From: an uncultured archaeon
GTDB lineage: Archaea > Halobacteriota > Methanosarcinia > Methanosarcinales > Methanoperedenaceae
Direction of reading: 5' to 3'
Assembly (NCBI GenBank): GCA_902386135.1
Contig: CABMIB010000094.1
Coordinates: forward strand, 1-32,563
DNA length: 32,563 nt
Made by a program: the position numbers and the translations under genes. The notes below the pieces were generated by a model. That model was not told where the DNA came from. It made no database searches and was given only the letters and a program-made list of their open reading frames with translations. Positions 26,530-29,891 of the stretch are shown in pieces (the stretch's first letter is position 1; each line of letters opens with the position of its first letter).

Positions 26530-28623
26530 TTAAACAACCCTGAATCGCCCGTTGGTCACTTCAAGAATCTCTCCTATGGTTTTTAATTTCATTATATTTT
26601 CTTCAATGGTATCTTTTTTGATACCTGATTCTTCTGCCTTTGATATAATATCTTCCAGGGGCACCGCGCTCTTATGCTCTTCCTGGAGCTGCCGTATTAT
26701 CTCTTTCAATACCTTTATCCTGTCGCGCTGGCTCTTTCCCATTCCGACGTTAATGATATCCGCATCAAGCCTGCCTGTCTCCGGGTCGGTCATGACCTGT
26801 TTGAGGCTTGCCATCACGATCCTGATCACGCGGTCCGTGTCTTCCAGGGTTATGACACTGCTCAAACGCACGCGTGCGCTCGCCTCTGCCAGGCGGATAA
26901 GCGCCTCAAGCTGGCGCGCTGTTACGGGTACGGGAGAATTCGGGTCTTCACCCTGTTTTCGCAGGCTCAGGTAAAAGTCGATCAGCCGCTTCCTGGCATC
27001 GTCCTGGATTATCGGGAAGATGTTCCTTTTTGTATATGCGATATACTTTCGCAGCATATCAGCCTTGATAAGGGGCTGTATGACCTCCATAGCTTTCGTT
27101 ATCTCATCCATTTCTATGCCTGAACCGATGACATTGGCTCTCCTTACCGAGAGTTCGCCTGCATAATGCGCTTTAAGTATGTGTTCGGCGATCGCAGTAT
27201 CCCGGCTGACCGAAGGTTCATCCGTCAGGATGAAGATAAGGTCAAAACGCGACAGGAGCGCGGGAGGCATGTTGATCTGTTTTGCAATAGGCTCATACCT
27301 GTCAAACCGCCCGAACTTGGGATTAGCAGCGCCAAGCAGCGCACAGCGTGATTTCAATGTAGCCATGATGCCTGCCTTGGCTATACTTATTGTCTGCTGC
27401 TCCATGGCTTCGTGCATCGAACTCCTGTCATCCGCTTCCATTTTGTCAAGTTCGTCCACGCATGCAAGACCCATATCCGCAAGCACGAGCGCGCCTGCTT
27501 CAAGCGTCCAGCGCCCTTCGCCGAACTCATCCTTGACAGCGGTCGCAGTAAGACCGGCAGATGTTGAGCTTTTACCGCTTGTGTATATACCCCGCGGCGC
27601 AAGCCTGACGCCATATCGCAGCAACTGGGATTTTGCCACACCCGGGTCGCCAACAAGAAGAATATGTATATCGCCCCTTATACGCGCCCCGTCTGGCAGG
27701 GATTTGGGCATACCCGAAAAAAGCTGTAAAGCCATGGCTTCCTTGACTTCGTCATAACCATAGATGGAGGGGGCTATCGAGCGGATCACTTTACCAAAAA
27801 TCTCCGTGTCCTTCCCAAGGGCAAGGATCTCATCTATCTCTTCTTTTGTTATCTCGATGTCCTCGAACTCCTTATCCTCTATCTCGATAGACACGCCGTC
27901 AAGTACGAGGTCAAAGAATGTGCTTTTCCCCTGCTGGGTATTTCTCTGGAAAGAACGCAGTATCCCTGATATCACGATGCGGTCACCCGGGGTTACGACT
28001 CCTGCGAGGTCGTCATCCACGTCCACGTCCAGGGTCTGGGGCTGCTCTCCTCCGCGCAGGTCATCGGGAGATTCCTGCACCCGCAGTTTCTGCGCATCGA
28101 TAAATTCGGATTCCTCGTGGACTATCTTAAAAGGGCCTTTTCTTCCGCAGACGTCGTTTTCGCATTCATACGGCTCAACGAACTTGCCCTCTCCCTGCGG
28201 AACGAATGTCACATGCTCGCATCTCTGGCATTTGAATGCTGCATTGACTATCTTGGGTCTTACTTCTGTGGCCTTCCTGATAAGACCTGATACTGCTATG
28301 AATTTGTTGATATTGGCGCTCCGGAGCTCCCTTATCTGGATGCGTGCCTGTTCCGGCAGATTGATGACCCTTATATGTGTGTTCTTGAACTCCTCGACAT
28401 CCGCAGGCAGTTCGATGCCGATAAGGGCTTCGTTTGCATGTTTTAACACGGTTTCGGGGCGCTCAAGCAGCTCGTCTGCGAGCTCCCTGTCGAACTGTTC
28501 AAGGTCAGGGAACTGAACGAAAAGGCTGCGCTTCTCAGGGTAGTGGTTGGCCAGTTCGAGCAGGTTATCCCAGTAATAGCGTTTGAAGAAATCTTCCCAG
28601 ATCTGATTTGATGATTGTGCCAT
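26530..28623 (-). CDS. mcm: Replicative DNA helicase MCM
   Basis: The hexameric 3'-5' helicase that unwinds DNA at the archaeal replication fork. Seen: N-terminal domain with zinc site C132/C135/C154/C159, OB-fold region to about 255, AAA+ core with Walker A GDPGVAKS (325-332), sensor and hairpin segments, Walker B CVDELDKM (388-395), arginine finger Arg459 in LLSRFD, and a C-terminal winged helix (about 620-697, ending GEILEVTNGRFRVV). The 697 residues are a normal length with no intein, although MCM Walker A sites often carry one in archaea. DUF424 and two coiled-coil genes follow. Confidence 0.98.
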   Translation of the reverse strand: MAQSSNQIWEDFFKRYYWDNLLELANHYPEKRSLFVQFPDLEQFDRELADELLERPETVLKHANEALIGIELPADVEEFKNTHIRVINLPEQARIQIRELRSANINKFIAVSGLIRKATEVRPKIVNAAFKCQRCEHVTFVPQGEGKFVEPYECENDVCGRKGPFKIVHEESEFIDAQKLRVQESPDDLRGGEQPQTLDVDVDDDLAGVVTPGDRIVISGILRSFQRNTQQGKSTFFDLVLDGVSIEIEDKEFEDIEITKEEIDEILALGKDTEIFGKVIRSIAPSIYGYDEVKEAMALQLFSGMPKSLPDGARIRGDIHILLVGDPGVAKSQLLRYGVRLAPRGIYTSGKSSTSAGLTATAVKDEFGEGRWTLEAGALVLADMGLACVDELDKMEADDRSSMHEAMEQQTISIAKAGIMATLKSRCALLGAANPKFGRFDRYEPIAKQINMPPALLSRFDLIFILTDEPSVSRDTAIAEHILKAHYAGELSVRRANVIGSGIEMDEITKAMEVIQPLIKADMLRKYIAYTKRNIFPIIQDDARKRLIDFYLSLRKQGEDPNSPVPVTARQLEALIRLAEASARVRLSSVITLEDTDRVIRIVMASLKQVMTDPETGRLDADIINVGMGKSQRDRIKVLKEIIRQLQEEHKSAVPLEDIISKAEESGIKKDTIEENIMKLKTIGEILEVTNGRFRVV

Positions 28624-29207
28624 TCATACTACTAAATACCGAATGGTACTTCAATGTTTCGAGGTACAGTATATGCATCTTAAAGGGGTTGCAATAACGG
28701 GAGAGATCCACGGTTGGATATTATAAAAGTAATCAGCCTGTAATGCTGTAGATGTGGATAAAAGGAAACTCCATGGTCAGTTTAAAAACAGGGGTTTCCC
28801 GGAAAGAGGTCTTCAGCCATTTATTTTATCTCTGAATATTCAACCCCTTTATTTCTATTGGAGAACTTAAATTATAATTCTAATAATAATGATGAAAAAC
28901 GGGTTATAAAAATCAAGCCTACCCTATCTGATTATAAAAAAGCATCATGTGTACCTTTACCGGTCAGTTTACAATGTTTCCAGAAACGTGCTAATCATTT
29001 TGGATAAGTTACCCCTGTTTCTTCTGGAGAACTATTATCAGGGATAACAGGGGATAGTGGACAGAAGGAATTACGATGGTGTGAAAAAGAGACTTTGTAT
29101 ACCGCCCACTATTACTTCGTATATTTACGAACGCAGTATTATAGTTAACGGATTATGTCTTTCATTGAATGTATATTTTATAAACAAAAAAAACAAATTA
29201 GTACCCC
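28624..29207. other. 584-bp intergenic region with repeated GC-boxed motifs
   Basis: No ORF or RNA gene was recognised. AACAGGGG occurs at 28787-28794 and 29046-29053 and inverted at 29012-29019; the last two could form an 8-bp stem. A diverged direct repeat (CCCCT, T-rich spacer, TGGAGAACT) occurs at 28844-28867 and 29012-29034. A near-palindrome, GTTTCCAGAAAC, lies at 28976-28987. The region separates the divergent MCM and rpiA promoters. An unusually long, AT-rich, repeat-bearing gap beside MCM could be a regulatory region or a replication initiator site; there is no orc1/cdc6 gene in the window to support the latter. Confidence 0.4.
29176..29184 (+). promoter_or_regulatory. TATA box of rpiA
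   Basis: TTTTATAAA is centred 28 bp upstream of the ATG at 29208, with no Shine-Dalgarno site, so the rpiA transcript is probably leaderless. Confidence 0.6.
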
Positions 29208-29891
29208 ATGATGTCATCTACACGGAATAATCCAAAGCAGGCGGCAGGAGAAGAGGCTGCCAGGCTTGTAAAAAACGGTATGGTCGTTGGACTCGGAACA
29301 GGCTCAACCGCAGCCTACGCAATAAAAGAGCTTGGAAAACATGTTGCTGCGGGTTTGAAAATGCTGGGCGTGCCAACGTCCTACCAGTCCGCTTTTTTAG
29401 CAGCCGAGAACGGGATCCCCCTTACAACTCTTGATGAGCATCCTGTCCTTGATATCGATATCGACGGCGCAGACCAGGTCGCTGATTTTACGGCGATTAA
29501 AGGCGGCGGCGCAGCGCACACGCGCGAAAAAATCGTGGCTTTGTCTTCAAGGAAGTTCGTGGTCGTGGTGGATGAGTCCAAATGCGCCGGCGTCCTGAAT
29601 CACACAGTCCCGCTTGAAGTCCTGCCGTTTGCGCGGAAGCTTGTAATAAAACAGGTAGCGGAGCTTGGGGGAAAAGCTGAACTGCGCATGGGGGTCAATA
29701 AAGACGGCCCTGTCATCTCGGATAACGGGAATTTCATCATGGATGCCGATTTCGGGATAATAGACGATCCTGCTGCGCTGGCCGGGCAGCTTTCACAGTG
29801 CTCCGGCATAGTAGAGCACGGGATCTTCACAAAGGTAGATGTTATTTACATTGGGAAAAAAGACGGCTCTGTAGAGGTACTGGGCTCTTAA
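29208..29891 (+). CDS. rpiA: Ribose-5-phosphate isomerase A
   Basis: Interconverts ribose 5-phosphate and ribulose 5-phosphate, supplying pentoses for nucleotides. Seen: the phosphate loop GLGTGSTA (28-35), the active-site DIDGADQV (84-91), [13 protein letters not shown] (98-110) with the catalytic Glu107, and the C-terminal [14 protein letters not shown]. The 227 residues are typical. The TATA spacing selects the first ATG. The stop codon TAA (29889-29891) interlocks with the stop of the convergent sugar-nucleotidyltransferase gene. Confidence 0.96.

Follow-up and report, generated by a model that had tools for sequence, protein, structure and literature searches.

Candidatus Methanoperedens genomes carry a conserved two-box module with a predicted origin recognition box away from the orc1/cdc6 gene

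In bacteria, datA and DARS are sites where boxes for the replication initiator lie off the origin. To our knowledge, the control of initiation in archaea beyond Sulfolobus and the haloarchaea is poorly known. In the accessible part of a report on Haloarcula hispanica (PMC3936714), oriC2D, a region downstream of cdc6E with 11 origin recognition boxes (ORBs) in 722 bp beside that gene, restrains the origin oriC2, likely via titration of Cdc6E; the same text mentions that datA titrates DnaA. In Sulfolobus, as described in the available excerpt of PMC12141716, the active origin oriC1 has AT-rich DNA flanked by two inverted ORBs, both of which are needed, and a ucm motif in its unwinding element. 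Literature titles and abstract openings contained, among the matches listed, no description of ORB modules away from orc1 in Methanoperedens or Methanosarcinales, the search on ‘datA’ being weakened by its reading as ‘data’.

The window, which denotes the whole 32,563-bp stretch of DNA analysed, is contig C94 of a 3.24-Mb genome in 120 contigs (G000). Its host belongs to the genus Candidatus Methanoperedens in the order Methanosarcinales and is a methane-oxidising archaeon. A gap of exactly 584 bp (28624-29207) separates the start of mcm from the ATG of rpiA. These borders agree with the initial annotation, which also noted AT-rich blocks; the gap has 65.2% A+T compared to 54.1% in the whole window. 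The gap and its two neighbours comprise the following features.

26530-28623, minus strand: mcm, the replicative helicase gene and left neighbour (Pfam MCM, MCM_OB, MCM_lid and MCM_N)
28843-28862, minus strand: box A, a predicted ORB TCCAATAGAAATAAAGGGGT, exact match to TCCANNNGAAAYAAWGGGGT
28863-28902, no strand: AT-rich block with a ATNATNATGATG-like run, unwinding-element-like, 80% A+T, conserved in 23 aligned loci
28903-29010, no strand: inter-box spacer, weakly conserved in the consensus of 53 loci, including GTTTCCAGAAAC at 28976-28987, which is not conserved in the comparison with genome G002
29011-29028, minus strand: box B, TCCAGAAGAAACAGGGGT, a mini-ORB-like version of the ORB core whose G side is shortened, with the half-site TTTCNNNTGGA(A/G) at a near-fixed distance
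29049-29158, plus strand: element C, a dispersed repeat with a TATA-like tail (75.8 bits against model R2, an in-sample score)
29208-29891, plus strand: rpiA, the ribose-5-phosphate isomerase A gene and right neighbour (Pfam Rib_5-P_isom_A)

With the gap DNA as a query, matches were found in all 31 genomes of the genus. Those that were not at the mcm start or on the rpiA side fell mostly at about 28810-28900, which comprises box A and its AT-rich side, and at about 29052-29150, which corresponds to element C. Box A is the only sequence in the window that fits the ORB pattern at up to three mismatches, and one of four exact TCCANNNGAAAYAAWGGGGT matches in the whole genome, the others being a site on contig C66 and single ORBs on C101 and C117. 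Its TCCA end points right and faces the AT-rich block, so that an AT-rich, unwinding-element-like stretch stands directly beside the ORB. Ranked by stability, 28819-28898 is the third weakest of the well-separated 80-mers in the window, and just 0.43% of all 80-mers there are weaker than 28862-28941.

The initial annotation had built its case on shorter repeats, which were all re-found: three AACAGGGG boxes in both orientations, at 28787-28794 (+), 29012-29019 (-) and 29046-29053 (+); a direct repeat CCCCT...TGGAGAACT, with copies at 28844 and 29012, 168 bp apart; and GTTTCCAGAAAC. Over the whole window, AACAGGGG occurs four times; dinucleotide shuffles average 0.82 copies, and two of 100 reached four. 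In G002, the closest relative found, the direct repeat, which corresponds to boxes A and B, is kept together with the intervening DNA. The segment 28665-28823, including the first AACAGGGG, is absent from its mcm-rpiA gap, and so is 29036-29129, including the third AACAGGGG and most of element C, of which the tail is kept. GTTTCCAGAAAC is altered there and was rejected as a conserved element. Neither the first nor the third AACAGGGG lies within an ORB-pattern match, even at up to three mismatches. Because these two copies lie in segments missing from G002, the 8-mer AACAGGGG is the wrong unit, and the right one is the predicted 20-bp ORB. The loose likeness to ORBs suggested at first thus holds for box A, which fits the pattern exactly, and for box B as a degenerate version, but not for the other AACAGGGG copies.

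The orc1/cdc6 gene of the window genome lies at G000:C5:26719, with a paralogue at C77:9546. Four boxes are found upstream of orc1 (G000:C5:26205-26654; L007 and L110), the outer one inverted, and each of them fits TCCANNNGAAAYAAWGGGGT with one mismatch. We extended the comparison to 28 of the 30 genomes with an orc1 match, leaving out the partial loci L072 and L073. Within 650 bp upstream of orc1, all 28 have two to four boxes of the form TCCA-N3-GAA-N4-6-GGGG, whose usual positions are near -250, -212 and -82. An outer box in reverse orientation occurs at -424 to -568 in 26 of them, counting one-mismatch boxes, and two same-way ORBs are spaced 163-177 bp apart in 27. This ORB cluster is likely the main chromosomal origin of Methanoperedens. 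The AT-rich block of the window lies on the side of box A that corresponds to the interval between the inverted boxes of orc1.

We built a sequence-only model of box A, termed R1, from 23 dispersed loci and no orc1 site. It nonetheless matches 27 of 29 orc1 loci at E<=0.05, and nine of its 32 weaker matches in the genus lie right beside orc1. The comparison with the repeats near orc1/cdc6, proposed in the initial annotation as a check, thus yields a common motif within the lineage, exact in box A and degenerate in box B. Judged by its sequence, box A is an ORB that shares its motif with those upstream of orc1, and Orc1 very probably binds the module. With one mismatch allowed, TCCANNNGAAAYAAWGGGGT occurs 228 times in the 31 genomes, compared to once for a reversed-pattern control. 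In the 20 of these genomes with complete site lists (G000-G019), the ORB-pattern sites number 156, with 62 within 1 kb of orc1, 34 box A sites and 60 elsewhere, which places 94 of the 156 initiator boxes more than 1 kb from orc1.

Single ORBs away from both orc1 and the box A sites were seen at G000:C101:50771, C117:14431, C79:1693 and C116:5466 (L106-L108). One lone ORB with the core GTA recurs in an intergenic location common to G004, G006 and G030.

The box A model gave 52 matches above 40 bits in the 31 genomes of the genus, 23 of which had built the model and 29 had not; the score of the window copy (65.6 bits, E 9.7e-18) is in-sample, as this copy helped to build R1. Every genome has at least one box A site: 19 have two, G001 has three and 11 have one, and none of these sites lies within 11 kb of orc1. 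The two sites of a genome lie in different gene settings in 19 of the 31 genomes. Counted by eye from a cluster table, 10 of the 52 sites adjoin mcm, 16 larE and 11 folP and/or tatC, so that 37 fall in three gene settings; the other 15 lie elsewhere, some of them beside ilvD or a dadD-like gene. The mcm, rpiA, orc1 and amidohydrolase genes were domain-scanned (Pfam), and the names larE, folP, tatC, ilvD and dadD-like are readings of translations.

Boxes A and B share the same orientation and are 166 bp apart in the window, measured from TTTC to TTTC. Box B usually reads ACC-N4-TTTC, compared to ACCCC-N4-TTTC in box A, a shortened core that resembles a mini-ORB. It was searched for at 53 box A loci, namely the 52 of the genus and one from a different genus within the family. 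The search placed the half-site TTTCNNNTGGA(A/G) 140-205 bp downstream of box A exactly in 44 loci and with one mismatch in six more; in these 50 loci, it starts 159-181 bp past the start of box A. By comparison, the exact search at three control offsets gave 0, 0 and 1 of 53. In the three remaining loci (G022:C18, G001:C9 and G001:C6), a search that allowed up to two mismatches gave no box B. Among the exact loci, TTTC-to-TTTC distances span 150-172 bp, with a mode of 162, and the DNA between the boxes is mostly poorly conserved in the 53-locus consensus.

The modules have diverged in their overall sequence. Across 39 modules from 20 genomes, with the G001:C9 and C6 pair set aside, those that share a genome show 45-60% identity. 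All 39 have a closer best match in some other genome, at 54-91% identity and at least 70% in 29, a value biased upwards as it is the best of many. The margins are small for G017:C32 (0.61 vs 0.60), both modules of G009 and G022:C18, and for 10 of the 39 the best match elsewhere does not exceed 69% identity. We rejected recent mobile-element copying, since modules of the same genome are less alike than the best copy from another genome in 39 of 39. The boxes and their spacing are kept in otherwise diverged sites and therefore point to selection.

The exception is the pair set aside, which is 87% identical. These two sites (G001:C9:4058-4126 and G001:C6:21430-21494; L128 and L129) have box A and lack box B, and lie on contigs of 53 and 76 kb; they are possibly plasmid-borne. 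Of the three sites in G001, one is thus a full module and two lack box B.

To the right of box B lies element C, which is a different thing from the A-B module. It is about 100 bp long and has two inverted repeats, 29054-29064/29102-29112 (imperfect here) and the palindrome 29116-29131, which reaches up to 28 bp in other copies. The model R2, built from 12 loci, gave 1-18 matches per Methanoperedens genome, among the matches listed. Element C often follows box B in the part of the genus that uses the mcm slot, is sometimes tandem and also occurs without a box A site; further copies lie at L109:5324-5979 (G000:C101). Of the 27 genomes that have a certain tyrosine recombinase gene (Pfam Phage_integrase), presumably XerA-like, at least 14 carry element C within 1 kb 3' of it on the same strand. 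Such copies may serve as recombinase sites or operators, or may encode small RNAs.

Outside the genus the ORB recurs with its AT-rich side, mostly in the absence of box B. R1 matches 106 of 185 genomes of the order at E<=0.001, including the 31 of the genus, though many matches are short. We compared 20 sites drawn from 18 of the genomes that lie outside the genus. A ATNATNATGATG-like run, with one mismatch allowed, lies within 75 bp on the TCCA side in 14 of the 20, compared to three on the other side. Seven sites (G112, G116, G117, G128, G131, G133 and G134) lie upstream of a tRNA-Asn/tRNA-Met pair; the sites in this slot (L187-L189, L197, L198, L200 and L202) combine an ORB with AT-rich DNA and come from one genus of family f5. 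The site of G147 is the orc1 locus itself. Box B is present at the expected distance only in G071, from the same family as Methanoperedens. An element-C-like inverted repeat GATGGACAGG...CCTGCCCATC and a TATA-like sequence were seen by eye to the right of this box B (L196, G071:C12).

Compared to the ORBs and mini-ORBs linked to orc1/cdc6, the module has the same 20-bp motif, with AT-rich DNA at its TCCA end, but it lies away from orc1 and consists of one ORB and one shortened core in direct rather than inverted orientation. It shares with oriC2D, as the accessible text presents it, ORBs outside the origin proper and a proposed role in control of the initiator; it differs in having two boxes, no linkage to orc1 and a near-fixed spacing. 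The likeness to Sulfolobus oriC1, within the excerpt available, is one of layout: ORBs with a conserved motif in the adjoining AT-rich DNA, but without inverted ORBs flanking it. The analogy that we draw with datA and DARS is one of logic, in that initiator boxes lie off the origin; those sites use DnaA boxes and bacterial proteins, and there is no homology.

We favour a control site, with a secondary or dormant origin as a close rival. The module would be an off-origin binding site for Orc1/Cdc6, with a role in control that we put first tentatively and at somewhat less than an even chance. Orc1 monomers would bind tightly at box A and weakly at box B, the DNA between them would be bent or locally opened, and the pair would hold the initiator, or switch it, away from the orc1-linked origin, following the logic of datA/DARS or of Haloarcula hispanica, where oriC2D gives a precedent for ORBs acting as control outside an origin (accessible part of PMC3936714). 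Control is preferred over a start site because the boxes point one way, no initiator gene is adjacent, three modules lie only about 12-21 kb from orc1 and the skew of G117 places the origin at orc1. Nevertheless, a site for pure titration could do without the AT-rich block and without a fixed spacing, and AT-rich DNA next to the TCCA end of an ORB is a feature of origins. Moreover, the module is a small sink compared to the ORBs at orc1, and the motif might be read by another protein. The 10 modules without a close copy elsewhere and the three box A sites without box B also speak against a control site.

Next in probability comes a secondary or dormant origin that lacks an initiator gene of its own. 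Orc1 at box A would melt the AT-rich block at the TCCA end and load MCM, and the second module of the genome would act likewise. The ORB facing weak DNA fits this reading, and the A-B spacing of the exact loci resembles that of the same-way ORBs at orc1. However, the inverted ORB partner is absent, A and B being in the same orientation, and in Sulfolobus oriC1 both inverted ORBs are needed (available excerpt of PMC12141716). A search for orc1/cdc6 placed no such gene beside the module, which lies on C94 between mcm and rpiA.

Distance and skew bear on the same question. Related sites lie far from orc1 in five relatives with complete or near-complete genomes, at 44% of the chromosome in G117, 40% in G133, 37% in G131, 36% in G134 and 29% in G036, but the first four share one tRNA slot and are not independent. 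Matches to R1 in other complete genomes lie near orc1 (about 75 kb in G119, about 22 kb in G155 and about 6% of the chromosome in G079), and within the genus the modules of G022, G010 and G017 are about 12, 13 and 21 kb from it. In G117, codon-position-3 skew over 20 spaced 20-kb samples fits a single origin at orc1, and none of 200 gene shuffles reached the best fit. The skew of G036 showed nothing significant (23 of 200 gene shuffles). At the G001:C7 module, the raw skew turns from negative to positive as an origin would have it, but the change tracks gene orientation and reverses after 20 kb. Nothing consistent appears at the modules of G006 and G017, and no change is seen at the orc1 of G001, the sole Methanoperedens orc1 sampled. 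Of the origin-like character proposed in the initial annotation, the ORB beside an AT-rich block stands, but the inverted pair is absent, the orc1-linked cluster lies elsewhere and the skew does not favour an origin here.

Transcriptional control is improbable. Orc1 at boxes A and B would tune the divergent mcm and rpiA promoters, or other neighbours elsewhere, and would tie helicase supply to the level of the initiator. The 10 sites of the genus that adjoin mcm agree with such a role, but the other 42 of 52 lie elsewhere, neighbours vary by slot and some are gene 3' ends. Regulation specific to mcm was accordingly rejected as a general account. Still less probable is a site for chromosome organisation, segregation or termination, with an ORB-like sequence read by another protein. 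The related site of G117 (3043 kb) lies between 2938 kb and the record end, a stretch without samples to which the best fit assigns the terminus, but a terminus opposite orc1 fits almost equally (0.0299 vs 0.0322), the distance to orc1 is as small as about 12 kb and as large as 44% of the chromosome, and the motif is that of the ORBs at orc1. A non-coding RNA locus, also raised in the initial annotation, or a chance AT-rich spacer is very improbable: element C has inverted repeats and a TATA-like sequence that could belong to a small RNA gene, but the window has no Rfam family at the gathering score and no tRNA, element C shows little covariation, with both-side changes in two of 18 predicted pairs, and the conservation of the A-B pair is far above the controls.

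Altogether, with the control site still preferred, the position of the module far from the initiator gene suggests an additional point of control or a reserve site at which chromosome replication could start. We propose, with reserve, that Methanosarcinales may keep one or a few orphan modules of an ORB and AT-rich DNA besides the orc1-linked origin. In Methanoperedens, these would have two boxes at near-fixed spacing in inherited slots and would be an archaeal counterpart of datA/DARS that sets the activity of the initiator, or else reserve origins that lack an initiator gene. An off-origin ORB module that is conserved in inherited slots would offer a small and well-delimited object on which to ask whether archaeal initiators are controlled in the manner of datA/DARS or whether orc-less reserve origins exist.
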